36,851 nt of DNA from the NCBI GenBank assembly GCA_029054825.1, contig JAIDEM010000126.1:1-36851 (forward strand), written 5' to 3'. The notes under the pieces are model-generated. The model was not told where the DNA came from. It worked only from the letters and a program-made list of their open reading frames with translations, and ran no database searches. Source of the stretch: Prevotella sp. GTDB taxonomy: Bacteria > Bacteroidota > Bacteroidia > Bacteroidales > Bacteroidaceae. How positions within the stretch are numbered: the stretch's first letter is position 1; every line of letters starts with the position of its first letter. Both the position numbers and the translations under genes were made by a program. This document shows positions 557 to 26,658 of this stretch, one piece after another.

Positions 557-1711
557 ATGAAAGAATATATAACAATAAAAGGCGTTGGTCCTCTAAGGGA
601 TATCAATGGACTGGAGATATTGCCGATAACAGTATTGATAGGCGAATCGGCGATAGGCAAGAGCACATTGATGAAACTCGTATCCATGATGCGCTATTTG
701 TACAAGATGGCAAACATACGCTCCTATCTGAAGCATTCCAGAATCACCAGTTCGCCGTTCCGTGTACGCTTCGATACGATGATAAAAAATACAGGCCTGC
801 AGTCCATGCTCGGGGCGGAAAGCTTCATAGAGTATGCCGTGCTTATGGCCAACGGACACAGATACAGCGTCTCTGTATGCAACAAACGTCTTGGAAAATT
901 GCCGATAATCGACAAGGAAGACCTGCTTTTCACGAAAATTTCCTTTATCTCAGAAAACAGGAATGTCATACCGATATGGGCGGAAAAGGCCTCCGTCAAT
1001 GCCGGAGCGACATTGGGCTTCTACTTCCACGAGACGAACAACGACTTCACCCGAGCGTCAGAGGCGGATCAGGTGGTGAGTCTTGACTATGTCAACTTGA
1101 AGCTCCATATTACCCATCCGAAGGGAAAGGCTGTGCGTTATCGTGTGGAGCATACAGGCAATGCTCATGCGCCGATAGACCTGCGGGAAGCATCGTCCGG
1201 CATACAGACGTCAGCACCGTTGGCGTTGATTGTCAAACACTTTGCCCATGAGTATTCTTTCAAGGACGCATTTAACCGCTCCGTCCTGAGTTACCTCCAC
1301 GAGATAGAACGTCTGACAAAGTTCAAGGCCGTAGCGGAATCGTCAGACTTGGAGAATATAGTCTATGTGCATGTTGAGGAACCCGAACTGAGCCTGTTCC
1401 CTGACGCACAGTGTAAGTTGGTCGAAGAACTTGTTTTCGCGGCGACACATGCAGAGGCAGACAGAAAGGTCAATATGATGTTTGCGACACATAGCCCATA
1501 TATCCTTAATTACCTTAATATTGTGCTGAATCAGACAGACACAGGCCGTGCGAGCCTTGATCATGACAGCCTTGCCGTTTACCGTCTGTTTGACGGGCAG
1601 GCCCAGAGTCTGCTGGCGCAGGATGAGAATGGCCGATGGATTGTAGACACATACGACCTTACAGAGATGATGAACTGCATATATAACGAATACTCAAGAC
1701 TTGTGCGATGA
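557..1711 (+). CDS. AAA ATPase (OLD/AAA15-like)
   Basis: Walker A GESAIGKST near the N-terminus; HVEEPELSLFPDAQ (Walker B region) and MFATHSPYIL near the C-terminus. Confidence 0.8.
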   Translation: MKEYITIKGVGPLRDINGLEILPITVLIGESAIGKSTLMKLVSMMRYLYKMANIRSYLKHSRITSSPFRVRFDTMIKNTGLQSMLGAESFIEYAVLMANGHRYSVSVCNKRLGKLPIIDKEDLLFTKISFISENRNVIPIWAEKASVNAGATLGFYFHETNNDFTRASEADQVVSLDYVNLKLHITHPKGKAVRYRVEHTGNAHAPIDLREASSGIQTSAPLALIVKHFAHEYSFKDAFNRSVLSYLHEIERLTKFKAVAESSDLENIVYVHVEEPELSLFPDAQCKLVEELVFAATHAEADRKVNMMFATHSPYILNYLNIVLNQTDTGRASLDHDSLAVYRLFDGQAQSLLAQDENGRWIVDTYDLTEMMNCIYNEYSRLVR

Positions 1712-2388
1712 TAGATCTTCTGTTGAGACGTCGGCTACCATCGGAGTATGGGCTGAACGCTGATGATGTTGAGGTTCGGTCTTCCGTCATGTCTGGTATT
1801 TTCACACTGTCAGACAGCAAGTCTTGCAGGTCTTGTCACGAGAATCCCCTCCGTGAAGACAGGAAGGATTGCAATGAGGAAGTCTTGAAGATAGATGCAG
1901 GCATGAATGCCGTCACCGTGGTAGCTTTTGAAGAATATATTTCCCAATATGAACATTCGGAAGCGGATGTCAAGGAACGGTGTGATTATCTGATGGTTGA
2001 CGATACAGAGGACCACAGGAAGATAGCTTTCTGCGATTTGACCTGCTCCGATGTGAAATGGGTTGAGCCAAATGACGGCAGATACCCTGAGGGCAAGAGG
2101 GCGAAAGCCGTTAGCCAGATGCTGAAATCCATGGAGGTATTGCTGGCTGAACCCTTGATGTGCCAGTATATACTGACATCTGCAGACAAGGTCTGTCTGT
2201 TCGGGTGGAGAGACTACGGCTCATCTCCACGCATTGCCATAGCCAGGAGAGGCGACGCCATGCAGAATATGCAGGCTTTCTTGTCAACACCTTCAAGTAT
2301 GGCTCGACAGATGACCTCGTGCCAGAAGATCGGGAAACACGACTTTAAGTTTGTACAGATAAAATATCCGCGGGAATACATTTGGTAA
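1708..2388 (+). CDS. hypothetical partner protein of the ATPase (Cys-containing, possible nuclease-like fold)
   Basis: 226 aa ORF overlapping the upstream stop (atgatag at 1708); motifs CRSCHENPL and CDYLMVDDTEDHRKIAFCDLTCSDVKW. Confidence 0.7.
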   Translation: MIDLLLRRRLPSEYGLNADDVEVRSSVMSGIFTLSDSKSCRSCHENPLREDRKDCNEEVLKIDAGMNAVTVVAFEEYISQYEHSEADVKERCDYLMVDDTEDHRKIAFCDLTCSDVKWVEPNDGRYPEGKRAKAVSQMLKSMEVLLAEPLMCQYILTSADKVCLFGWRDYGSSPRIAIARRGDAMQNMQAFLSTPSSMARQMTSCQKIGKHDFKFVQIKYPREYIW

Positions 2389-16598: not shown

Positions 16599-16673
16599 GG
16601 TGCCCGTAGTTCAGTTGGTTAGAGCGTCAGATTGTGGTTCTGAAAGTCGTGGGTTCGAGCCCCACCGGGCACC
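16599..16673 (+). tRNA. tRNA-His (GTG anticodon)
   Basis: GTGCCCG/CGGGCAC acceptor stem with G-1:C73, D-loop TTCAGTTGGTTAGAGC, anticodon loop TTGTGGT, T-arm GTGGGTTCGAGCCCCAC; CCA not fully encoded. Confidence 0.92.
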
Positions 16674-16679
16674 CAATAA

Positions 16680-16717
16680 AAAAGAGGGTGCAGATTACAA
16701 ACTGCGCCCTCTTTTTG
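16680..16717 (+). terminator. rho-independent terminator after tRNA-His
   Basis: aagagggtgcag / ctgcgccctctt stem followed by a T run. Confidence 0.75.
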
Positions 16718-16836
16718 TATTTGTAAATCAAGCATTTACGGCTAATAAACGGCATTCCCCTGTGAATAAAGAAGTCAAGATAAACATCGTCCGTGTTGCC
16801 ACAAGTAGCATCTAAAAACCACAAATAATATCAAGA

Positions 16837-16869
16837 TGTTTACCCATTGTTTACCCATTGTTTACCCCG
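16837..16869. repeat. three tandem 11-bp direct repeats tgtttacccat upstream of the integrase
   Basis: tgtttacccat (16837-16847), tgtttacccat (16848-16858), tgtttaccccg (16859-16869). Confidence 0.8.
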
Positions 16870-16887
16870 ATTAGATAAATATTAGAT

Positions 16888-18090
16888 ATGGCTACATTTA
16901 AAGCGACAATAAAAAAAGACAAGATGCGTGCCGATAAGACTTGGAATGTACTCATAAGACTTACGCACGACAGGAAGACAAGGTATATATCCACAACCAT
17001 GTATGTCACCAAAAAGGATATGACCGCATCTTTCAAGATTAAGAACCAGCAAATCTTAGACAAATGTGACGACCTGATAAGGTCTTATCGGAAAAGAGCA
17101 AGCCAGCTTAATCTTGAAATGAATGACATTGACATCGACACGATTATAGACTACCTTAAAAAAAAAGATGAGAAAGCAGGCATCGACTTTATAGAGTTCT
17201 CTCGTAAATGGTGTAGCCGACACACAGAAATAAAAGGAATAAAAAACTACATGTCTGCCATCAATTCTTTTTGCTCTTTCTTCGGGCGAGAAAAGGTATT
17301 CTGCAACGAGGTGACAGTACAGAAGATGAAAGAATTTGAGAACCACTTGTCAGAGAAGAAAAGAGCACAGTCTTTATATTGCAATGCCATCATGCGCCTA
17401 TTCTCGGAGGCACGAGACTGCTATAATGATGAAGACAACGACATCATAAGGATAAAGCAGAATTTATCGAAATTCAAGCCGAAACATCAGAATACCGCCG
17501 AGAAAAGAGCACTCTCCGAGGATGTTATAAGACGGATATTCTCCTTGCCATATCTAAACATAAAGGTGAAAGGGCAACAGTGCCGCAGAGACCTTGCAAA
17601 AGACTGCTTCATGCTTTCGTTCTGCTTGATGGGCATGAACTCAGCAGACTTGTATAACGCAGAGGAATATGACGGCGAATATATCACCTATTGCCGAACC
17701 AAAACCAAAGACCGCAGGAACGACAAAGCAAAGATGGTCGTAAAAGTTCACCCAGCAATTAAGCATCTGGTCGAGAAATACCAAGGCAAAAGCAAAGTGT
17801 TCAACTTCAGTGAACGCTTCTCCTCAATGAGCGATTTGAACAGGGCTGTCAATATAGGTCTAAAAGAAATAGGGAAAGAGATAGGGGTCGAAAATCTCCA
17901 ATACTACGCTGCAAGGCACTCAATGGCTACTATAGCTATTAATAGGGTAGGGATTAACAAGTACATCGTCAATGACATGCTGTGTCATACAGACAGCGCA
18001 ATGAAAGTCACGGATTTATATATTCAAAAGGACTACACGATAATAAATGATGCAAACACCAAGCTTATAGACTACATCTTGCGTGATTAA
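16888..18090 (+). CDS. tyrosine recombinase / phage integrase
   Basis: C-terminal YYAARHSMAT, MLCHTDSAMKVTDLYIQ; N-terminal Arm-DNA-binding-like region; directly after a tRNA. Confidence 0.9.
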   Translation: MATFKATIKKDKMRADKTWNVLIRLTHDRKTRYISTTMYVTKKDMTASFKIKNQQILDKCDDLIRSYRKRASQLNLEMNDIDIDTIIDYLKKKDEKAGIDFIEFSRKWCSRHTEIKGIKNYMSAINSFCSFFGREKVFCNEVTVQKMKEFENHLSEKKRAQSLYCNAIMRLFSEARDCYNDEDNDIIRIKQNLSKFKPKHQNTAEKRALSEDVIRRIFSLPYLNIKVKGQQCRRDLAKDCFMLSFCLMGMNSADLYNAEEYDGEYITYCRTKTKDRRNDKAKMVVKVHPAIKHLVEKYQGKSKVFNFSERFSSMSDLNRAVNIGLKEIGKEIGVENLQYYAARHSMATIAINRVGINKYIVNDMLCHTDSAMKVTDLYIQKDYTIINDANTKLIDYILRD

Positions 18091-23642: not shown

Positions 23643-23673
23643 CAAAGATATAAACAATCCTCCTTGCCTCAAA
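23643..23673 (-). promoter_or_regulatory. consensus Bacteroidetes promoter for the 308-aa gene
   Basis: minus strand TTTG - N19 - TATCTTTG (+ strand caaagata 23643-23650, caaa 23670-23673). Confidence 0.75.
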
Positions 23674-23991: not shown

Positions 23992-24366
23992 TTATAATGT
24001 TTTCCTGATTATCAAATAAACGACCGTGGCGGCACCCATCCACATAAGCATCTCCTGCCACCAGTAGAGCGTGTGCTTCTCCTTCTCCATACAGTACGGC
24101 ACATATATGCTGTCAGTCCTTTCCACATACACGGTATCCGTCCGCAACTTGTCCCTGTACAATGTCCGTTCCCTGTACTTCGCCAGATATACGGTATCTC
24201 CCGTATGCCGTTCGCTGACATACACGCTGTCATGGAGATACACGCTGTCACGTCTGTATCTGACCTCTACACTGTCCTGATACCTGTATTCCGGGACTGT
24301 AACATACTTTGTCCTGCACCCTGCCAGCAGCAGCGTCAGAAACATAAAAAACATAACCCTTTTCAT
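23992..24366 (-). CDS. candidate unimolecular spanin (lipoprotein with C-terminal TM)
   Basis: MKRVMFFMFLTLLLAGCRTKY lipobox and C-terminal WMGAATVVYLIIRKTL; next to lysis genes. Confidence 0.6.
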   Translation of the reverse strand: MKRVMFFMFLTLLLAGCRTKYVTVPEYRYQDSVEVRYRRDSVYLHDSVYVSERHTGDTVYLAKYRERTLYRDKLRTDTVYVERTDSIYVPYCMEKEKHTLYWWQEMLMWMGAATVVYLIIRKTL

Positions 24367-24382
24367 GTCAATAAAAAATAAT

Positions 24383-24412
24383 AGCGGCATCCCTGACATG
24401 TGGGATACCGCT
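24383..24412 (-). terminator. rho-independent terminator of the protease gene (minus strand)
   Basis: agcggcatccc / gggataccgct stem (one mismatch), T-rich on minus strand (attattttttat). Confidence 0.75.
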
Positions 24413-24423
24413 AAAAATATTCG

Positions 24424-25317
24424 TCATACTTGCTGTATGAACGCCTTACCTTGGTTATTCTCTATGATTTTTATTACATTTGTTTGAGTTATGCTTATAA
24501 CCATGGAATGATGTACACTCAATATCAAATCCTGCAAATCCTGGTCTTTCTCCATCTCTTCTATTTTAAGTCCTATGCCTTTCAGGTTGTCAACATGCAG
24601 ATGCCTGCTGTGTGACAGTGTTGCAGAATGACTGCCCAAAAATTCAACAACCTTTTTTGCACAATGGCTTGGAGACGGTTCTTTTAAGAACATGTTTTGT
24701 TCCAACCATTCCTTTACCATCGTATCTGCCCATTCAATGGCCTTCTCACATTCGCCAATCAATGTAGGATGATATTTTGCAAGAACCTCACGCCATAGAA
24801 CAATAGAGCGAGGGTCTTTTTGAATTTCATTTTGTATACGTTTGAATTCTTCTATGATACCATGTGCCGGATAAATGCCAAGCTGAGGGTCTATTGGACC
24901 GAGATTTGATTGCTTGCCCATTACAATGCTCTTGCATGAGCAGGCTATCATTGTTCCAGCAGACATTGCTATTTGTGGCACAATCGCACGTATATCATTG
25001 CCGAATATAGACTTAATGTAGTTGACGATGGACTCAGTGGAAGCAACATCGCCACCAGGTGTATGCAGGATAAGGTCAAGCCCCTTTTTGCGGTCAAGTT
25101 TGTTGACCACAGTCATAAAACCATTCTTGTCATTGTCGTTGATGGAAAAATCAACACCTTGTCTTGAGAGTTGTGATTTCTGCAAGAACCCCGAATAATA
25201 AACAATGGTATTCCTGCCAGTATATTCTGACAGCTTGTGTATATATTTCCTGCGAGTTACATCAAATATACTGCTTGATGCTCCAACCTCTTTCAGGATT
25301 TCATCCCATGTAGGCAT
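24424..25317 (-). CDS. ClpP/crotonase-fold serine protease, SDH/SppA-like
   Basis: LDLILHTPGGDVASTESIVNYI, IVPQIAMSAGTMIACSCKSIVMGKQSNLGPIDPQLG. Confidence 0.8.
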   Translation of the reverse strand: MPTWDEILKEVGASSSIFDVTRRKYIHKLSEYTGRNTIVYYSGFLQKSQLSRQGVDFSINDNDKNGFMTVVNKLDRKKGLDLILHTPGGDVASTESIVNYIKSIFGNDIRAIVPQIAMSAGTMIACSCKSIVMGKQSNLGPIDPQLGIYPAHGIIEEFKRIQNEIQKDPRSIVLWREVLAKYHPTLIGECEKAIEWADTMVKEWLEQNMFLKEPSPSHCAKKVVEFLGSHSATLSHSRHLHVDNLKGIGLKIEEMEKDQDLQDLILSVHHSMVISITQTNVIKIIENNQGKAFIQQV

Positions 25318-25330
25318 ACGAAAATCATTT

Positions 25331-25513
25331 TTAACAGCACGCTATAGGATTCGTGCTGTTTGATAATTTAATTGTTTTCACCTCGCTAACGGCATGACCT
25401 TCCCAAAATGAATCGTATGGCATAGACTGCTTTGCAAAATCTATTCCACACTGATGGAAAAATTCCTTTATCTCCGCTATTCTATTTTCGTTATCTTTGA
25501 TGATCCTTTCCAT
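25331..25513 (-). CDS. 60-aa hypothetical protein upstream of the protease
   Basis: Short ORF immediately downstream of a -7 box and directly upstream of the protease. Confidence 0.55.
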   Translation of the reverse strand: MERIIKDNENRIAEIKEFFHQCGIDFAKQSMPYDSFWEGHAVSEVKTIKLSNSTNPIACC

Positions 25514-25539
25514 ATCAGAGTATCGGTTGGTTATTTCTG

Positions 25540-25547
25540 CAAAGATA
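25540..25547 (-). promoter_or_regulatory. Bacteroidetes -7 element (TATCTTTG) for the protease cassette
   Basis: caaagata on + strand; ATTG 18 nt upstream as a weak -33. Confidence 0.6.
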
Positions 25548-25643
25548 ACAATTATGTTTTATAATCAATGACTATAATCTACATATTTATCAATAATTAA
25601 CGGTATCCCACCATGTCAAAGAACGCCTGTCAAACATCCTGCC

Positions 25644-26174
25644 TCACTTCATTATCCCAAGAGCCTTCTTCGCCCTTCCGAGATATTTCTGCCTTGCGGC
25701 AAGACCGTTGTACCCTCCGTTTATACGCTTCGTAACGGCCTTTACATCGTCGCCGTCGGCAAGCGCGTTCAGGTCATGTGTCTTCCAGTACCACATCGAT
25801 GAACGCACCGCGCCGAGAGGCTGCTCCAGCAATTCCGGCTTGGCTACAACGTCAAAGCCGCAATGCTCAGCATACGCCTTGTAGTTGGCCTTGCCCGTGA
25901 GCTGTATCAGTCCGCGCCCCTTGTACCTTACACCGTCACCTTTTGACGTGTTGCCGAGGTCTTTCCGTCCCTCATATTCCGCTCCGCTCGCAAGCTCCTT
26001 TGTATACCTCAGCTCTCCGCTCTCATGTGCTATCTGCGCAAGGTAATGCGCCATGCGCAACGCTGTCGTTATGCCGAACTCCGAGGCATAACGGTTAATG
26101 AAGACAAGAAACTTGTCAACCCTGCCGTCTGCTGTCGGCATTATCCTTAGAACCTGTCCCCTTGTCACTTCCAT
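25644..26174 (-). CDS. endolysin, GH19 chitinase-like
   Basis: LAQIAHESGELRYTKE, YKGRGLIQLTGKANYKAYAEHCG, TKRINGGYNGLAARQKYLGRA; ATG at 26174. Confidence 0.9.
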   Translation of the reverse strand: MEVTRGQVLRIMPTADGRVDKFLVFINRYASEFGITTALRMAHYLAQIAHESGELRYTKELASGAEYEGRKDLGNTSKGDGVRYKGRGLIQLTGKANYKAYAEHCGFDVVAKPELLEQPLGAVRSSMWYWKTHDLNALADGDDVKAVTKRINGGYNGLAARQKYLGRAKKALGIMK

Positions 26175-26658
26175 ATTCTGTAAATATTTTCTGGTTATTG
26201 TCTTTTGTGGACAGCCGCTGTATGGCATCAATGATAGCCTCCGCGTCTTTCTCCCTCGCGCATTTCACGATATTCGTCACAAGCTCCGGCAACAGGGCGG
26301 CATGGCTTTTCTTCCGCCTCTTGTTCTCCAGCACGCTCCAGCCCTCAATCAGTATGCTGCCCATGGCTATGACAATCTGAAAGAACGGCAGATAATAGAA
26401 CGTGAACATGCTTCCTATTATGTCAATGAAGAGAAACGGCAGGAGTACCCCAGCATAGTCCTTGATTTTCTGGAATGTCTCCCTCAGCCTGTGCGAGTGT
26501 ACCTTCTCGCCGATGGCTCTTGCCGTGTTCACTCCGCTCCACATGTCGGCAAAGCAGGCTACAGCCATGCCCAGCCATGTCACACATACCACGCCCGACC
26601 ACAGTACCATCCGCAGGGTCAGGGCATCCCACTCGCTATTTATAATTAGTTCAAACAT
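26116..26658 (-). CDS. phage holin family protein
   Basis: Several TM segments, AVACFADMWSGVNTARAIGEKVHSHRLRETFQKI; overlaps the endolysin start. Confidence 0.75.
   Translation of the reverse strand: MFELIINSEWDALTLRMVLWSGVVCVTWLGMAVACFADMWSGVNTARAIGEKVHSHRLRETFQKIKDYAGVLLPFLFIDIIGSMFTFYYLPFFQIVIAMGSILIEGWSVLENKRRKKSHAALLPELVTNIVKCAREKDAEAIIDAIQRLSTKDNNQKIFTEYGSDKGTGSKDNADSRRQG

Follow-up and report, generated by a model that had tools for sequence, protein, structure and literature searches.

A mobile protease and small-partner module in a prophage cargo slot, with a putative role in conflict between mobile elements

Introduction

Serine proteinases of the ClpP-like SDH type are recorded in protein family libraries as phrog_11747 and PF01972, entries that cover the protease alone and leave partner, context, and function unrecorded. 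SDH-type proteases number in the hundreds among phages and bacteria, and no role has been assigned to them. Accessory genes of prophages have been tested as defense genes, among them BstA, Tai, and GiPD474 (PMC8585504, PMC11364771, PMC12724215). Proteases also take part in antiviral nuclease-protease pairs, in which a trypsin-like protease is combined with an MBL nuclease; these pairs are mobile and common to immune loci (PMC12799240). The locus described here holds an SDH-type protease together with a small ORF within the lysis region of a prophage.

Locus and prophage setting

The window (the whole stretch of DNA that was analyzed, 36,851 nucleotides) contains a prophage part of minus-strand genes from about 18 to 36.8 kb (about 20 kb). 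Its closest relatives and its type of promoter make it Bacteroidales-like. A tRNA-His gene (16600-16674) is followed by a gene of a tyrosine-type integrase (16888-18090); the prophage attachment site probably lies in this region (window 16600-18090). Outside the prophage, at window 557-2388, an AAA_21 ATPase (PADLOC PDC-M29A, 8e-29) and an overlapping 226-aa ORF without a family look like a chromosomal candidate defense pair.

A preliminary description of this DNA placed a 60-aa ORF and an SDH/ClpP-fold serine protease between the endolysin and the spanin, and both ORFs were found there. The features of the locus are as follows:

25644..26231, minus strand: GH19-type endolysin, bordering the slot upstream (PF00182, phrog_181)
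25566..25569, minus strand: ATTG, -33 element of a predicted Bacteroidales promoter, 18 nt upstream of the -7 box
25540..25547, minus strand: TATCTTTG, -7 element, about 27 nt upstream of the ATG of the small ORF
25331..25513, minus strand: 60-aa ORF of the small partner, which is conserved alongside the protease in different phyla
24424..25317, minus strand: SDH/ClpP-fold serine protease, 297 aa (PF01972, phrog_11747, AF2 model)
24961..24963, minus strand: codon of the presumed nucleophile Ser119 (MSAGT), invariant among aligned homologues
24382..24413, minus strand: intrinsic terminator in the protease/spanin interval, possibly belonging to the cargo slot (12-bp stem, dG -21.6, T-run)
23992..24366, minus strand: spanin-like lipoprotein, bordering the slot downstream (lipoprotein start; weak Rz-like match; homologues follow endolysins in relatives)

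Occupancy of the endolysin-spanin junction

Homologous endolysin-spanin junctions that lack the module were found in related phages (loci L027, L225, L231, and L248); the pair is thus not present at this position in all relatives. The prophage of genome G053 (locus L214), from another species of the genus, carries at the same junction a module whose protease is 46% identical to that of the window. In the phylogenetic tree, the G053 protease grouped with those of Porphyromonas gingivalis phages (support 99) and the window protease with those of loci L037 and L117 (support 97), in different major clades. The two modules entered the same slot independently. In a third prophage, of genome G172, the same slot is occupied by a Fic gene. 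At L117, the module is convergent with an endolysin gene. In prophages of this group, the endolysin-spanin junction is a slot for cargo, where further genes of the kind may be sought, and the protease and its partner are mobile accessory cargo of the moron type. The moron reading of the preliminary description is well supported by the accessory presence of the pair, empty sites, independent occupation of the slot, AT-richness, and a promoter predicted for the pair itself.

The Fic gene of G172 encodes a Fic/DOC family protein (PF13784 and PF02661; L249:3166-4293, G172:C26) and is followed by a terminator nearly the same as in G053.

The terminator is the feature on which the preliminary description was borne out in part. 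It had assigned to the cassette its own rho-independent terminator, and a hairpin with the 12-bp stem and T-run is present, but its ownership is doubtful. The terminators ahead of the spanin are nearly identical in sequence in G172 and G053, and the empty slot of L225 contains a related, weaker one. Because relatives share this terminator with a Fic-carrying slot and retain a weaker one in an empty slot, the terminator cannot be taken as established property of the cassette. From its sequence, it looks like a part of the slot, rather than of the cassette, in the lineage of the G172, G053, and L225 relatives, and the same may hold for the terminator of the window. In its longest form, the spanin reading frame begins within the terminator hairpin (window 24366-24399); read-through or the downstream ATG at 24366 may therefore be needed for the spanin to be translated.

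Properties of the protease

The protease matched PF01972 (SDH_protease) above the curated cut-off (2e-22, 80 bits; cut-off 31.3) and phrog_11747 as a full-length profile match (E 1.2e-98, residues 18-296). It scored 96 bits against NCBIfam NF047768 (Clp_like_SDH), below the equivalog cut-off of 250, and is therefore not a member of that family by the curated rule. The AF2 model had a pLDDT of 93 and a pTM of 0.90. The nearest solved structures were ClpP chains, and the nearest viral models were 'serine dehydrogenase proteinases' of giant viruses. Ser119 of the MSAGT motif was invariant in 15/15 and in 78/78 aligned homologues. His85, Asp143, His236, His269, and His270 were likewise invariant in all 78, and Lys283 was nearly so. 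No histidine at the ClpP spacing (about +25) was present in the protease; the ClpP-type fold was matched, and the invariant histidines and the aspartate are other ones.

The family comprises at least 534 matches in GTDB genomes and 128 in IMG/VR, ranging from Bacteroidota to Actinomycetota, Bacillota, and archaea. Relatives of the SDH/SppA/NfeD type act on membrane proteins. This background, together with the presence of the module in the chromosomes of many phyla, would be consistent with host modulation, in which the protease of the lysogen trims membrane or regulatory proteins of the host for a fitness gain unrelated to phages. We consider it improbable, since no host gene recurs next to the module and the family is rare and patchy within the genus (strong protease match in 3 of 399 genomes). 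An all-against-all comparison of 1,181 neighboring ORFs revealed no recurrent third partner or sensor, which counts against a defensive role, and gave mainly genes that related phages share, integrases, and endolysins.

The small partner ORF

The 60-aa ORF had no family match, yet it is conserved. An ORF of 45-125 aa ended within 60 nt of the protease start at 113 of 123 non-redundant diverse loci, compared with 160 of 532 (30%) other ORFs of at least 250 aa from the same loci taken as a control. Partner profiles were built for four subfamilies, which overlap via the subfamily of the window itself; run over 7,914 ORFs, they matched module ORFs exclusively, among them the partners at four loci with swapped gene order (see below). 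At about 46 loci, the upstream small ORF lies beyond the reach of the four profiles, and a homologous partner there is a candidate only. The proposal that the 60-aa ORF is a partner of the protease is strongly supported by these data, and, as judged from sequence conservation, the small ORF is a real partner. Overlaps of the small ORF with the protease gene cluster at 1, 8, 17, 26, and 29 nt, and this recurrence of fixed lengths suggests that translation of the two is coupled.

The partner has a predicted N-terminal helix (residues 2-21), a flexible linker, and a conserved C-terminal segment, IKLSNST in the window; in the model of the small protein, the helix alone was confident. The segment is of the type h-x-[YL]-S-x-x-[ST], and its loose form occurred in 70 of 113 tails vs. 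32.7 in shuffles. The closest partners carry IRLSNST (L037) and VRLSNST (L117) near their ends.

A short, variable gene that comes first, overlaps the next one, and encodes a helix with a flexible tail could also belong to an addiction module similar to toxin-antitoxin systems, in which the free protease is toxic and is kept in check by the small protein, a labile inhibitor, and the gain is maintenance of the prophage, not defense. The location of the module on prophages and near integrases fits this alternative, as does the HicAB pair adjoining it in P. gingivalis phages. At four loci of one clade, however, the order is swapped, unlike in strict antitoxin-first operons: the partner lies immediately downstream of the protease (L091:3742-3910, L092:5546-5732, L113:6937-7138, and L116:6939-7137), and no convincing partner was found upstream. 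Overall, a partner upstream of the protease was not found in about ten loci, and no DNA-binding domain was found, which also argues against addiction. We regard it as unlikely, although worth keeping in mind. At locus L132, the partner is located 64 nt upstream of the protease. The HicA/HicB pair of the P. gingivalis phages lies ahead of the protease module in the head-gene region (L008:4855-5517).

Promoter, composition, and expected transcription

The -7 box reported in the preliminary description, TATCTTTG at 25547-25540, was confirmed, with ATTG 18 nt upstream; the promoter predicted from these letters, ATTG-N18-TATCTTTG, is of the Bacteroidales type. Only two full TTG-N17-23-TAnnTTTG sites were found on the minus strand of the prophage (about 20 kb), the module promoter and a site at 23672. 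This second complete promoter of the Bacteroidales type (23672-23643, minus strand) lies upstream of a 308-aa ORF (phrog_16490, unknown function). The TAnnTTTG element occurred upstream of the small ORF in 9 of 14 Bacteroidota homologues (2.5 expected from shuffles) and the complete promoter in 4 of 14 (0.31 expected from shuffles). The prophage module of G053 likewise has its own promoter, TTTG-N20-TACTTTTG.

The module is also richer in AT than its neighbors, as had been noted: its GC content was 0.396 (GC3 0.39) vs. 0.526 (GC3 0.61) for the endolysin and 0.48 (GC3 0.65) for the spanin, i.e., 40% against 48-53% in the flanking genes. An inverted repeat of 15 nt (93%) surrounds the module (24400-24414/25597-25611); it is not clearly above chance in 3 kb.

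Transcription of the module from its own promoter is predicted to occur in the lysogen. Late read-through is possible as well, since no strong terminator was found to separate the endolysin from the module; lysogenic expression is therefore not assured.

The module in other genomic contexts

The pair recurs in other prophages, namely in G053, in prophages of Escherichia coli, and in phages near integrases or lysis genes. In E. coli, the module was detected in 80 of 5,426 genomes. In the prophage of strain 120899, it is located between lysis and terminase genes, and strain Ecol_AZ146 contains a prophage with the same flanks and without the module. In strain Nissle 1917, it is located between Q and a methyltransferase/holin block. 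The small ORF ahead of the 'SDH family Clp fold serine proteinase' is left unannotated by RefSeq in 120899 (L274:6675-7248) and is a 'hypothetical protein' in Nissle 1917.

The module adjoins lysis genes (endolysin, holin, or spanin) in the prophage group studied here, in a Mu-like phage of Shewanella, and in lambdoid prophages of E. coli. This recurring position could hint at a late function and thus speaks somewhat against a defensive role. Together with the remote similarity of the protease to head-maturation proteases, it is what one would expect of a factor of the phage life cycle, i.e., a late protease for lysis timing or virion maturation. Close relatives, however, keep their lysis and head genes and have no module. 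The module is also found beside integrases (12 of the 132 proteins nearest to its phage copies) and amid chromosomal housekeeping genes; several of its chromosomal neighborhoods are plainly of this kind, with EF-G, tRNA synthetase, and ribosomal proteins. The prophage of E. coli 120899, moreover, already has a separate ClpP-like prohead protease/capsid fusion of its own. A life-cycle role is thus quite improbable in our view. Head maturation was rejected as the main reading because of this fusion in a homologue-bearing prophage and because the positions of the module vary.

Some chromosomal copies lie next to known immunity genes. The module is situated directly behind pglZ-brxL (BREX) at locus L064 and ahead of a GmrSD-like gene at L086. 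At L106, the protease is flanked by Mrr and a reverse transcriptase, and no partner was found at this locus. With PADLOC (E<=1e-10), 121 families were matched by 95 neighbors of the module at 20 chromosomal loci vs. 5 by 95 control proteins of the same genomes, a contrast to be discounted, since the families are redundant, about eight proteins from five or six loci out of the 20 account for all 121, and the surroundings at other loci are housekeeping genes. The link between the module and chromosomal defense loci is thus suggestive. Neither module protein had a match in PADLOC, and the module is not labeled as defense by PADLOC, Pfam, or NCBIfam.

Discussion

The recurrence of the pair in unrelated viruses and near bacterial immunity genes suggests that here a dormant virus is probably protecting its host from rivals. 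Superinfection exclusion or abortive infection would fit these contexts, namely cargo sites of prophages and some chromosomal defense loci. We favor, with rather modest confidence, the reading that this prophage-borne, moron-type module comprises a protease regulated by its partner and acts in conflict between mobile elements, probably defensively. The pair would be expressed in the lysogen from its own promoter, with the partner produced first and controlling or aiming the protease; the conserved C-terminal segment of the partner would probably bind the substrate groove of the protease. Infection by another phage would then release the enzyme or trigger cleavage of a phage or host protein, and the cleavage would block the invader or kill the cell. 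In this scheme, the fold is predicted; the module with its conservation and mobility, the slot, and the conserved serine are observed; and we infer the lysogenic expression, regulation by the partner, the trigger and substrate, and a defensive outcome.

With a dedicated small partner, which is often left out of annotations, the orphan enzyme becomes part of a two-component system that can be tested, and relatives in E. coli, Nissle 1917 included, make testing easier. Should its function be defense, this protease-based immune module would be unusually widely distributed. Tentatively, and with less assurance than for the window itself, it might represent a very widespread undescribed family of protease-based immunity or conflict systems, in which the conserved C-terminal tail of an approximately 60-aa partner gates an SDH/ClpP-fold protease in temperate phages and chromosomal defense loci of bacteria and some archaea. 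Prophage cargo as a concept is already known, and so is the protease family; in the libraries and open-access journal papers that were searched, the conserved pair and its distribution appear not to have been described. The same papers contained no account of these proteases with a role in phages or in defense.

Among known systems, the closest entries are phrog_11747 and PF01972, with the same fold and the same serine motif as the window protease. NF047768 (Clp_like_SDH) belongs to the same superfamily and gives the homologues in E. coli prophages their RefSeq name. ClpP and the SppA/1510-N (NfeD) peptidases were the best matches among solved structures (TM-score about 0.4 of the query) and have the serine in the same fold. 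Unlike them, the window protease has a large C-terminal extension with the invariant His236 and His270 and the near-invariant Lys283. No ATPase partner gene was seen. The nuclease-protease pairs are also mobile pairs with a protease, with no sign of homology to the pair described here. BstA, Tai, and GiPD474 are different proteins; like them, the window pair is accessory and variable between relatives, and its defense role is predicted.
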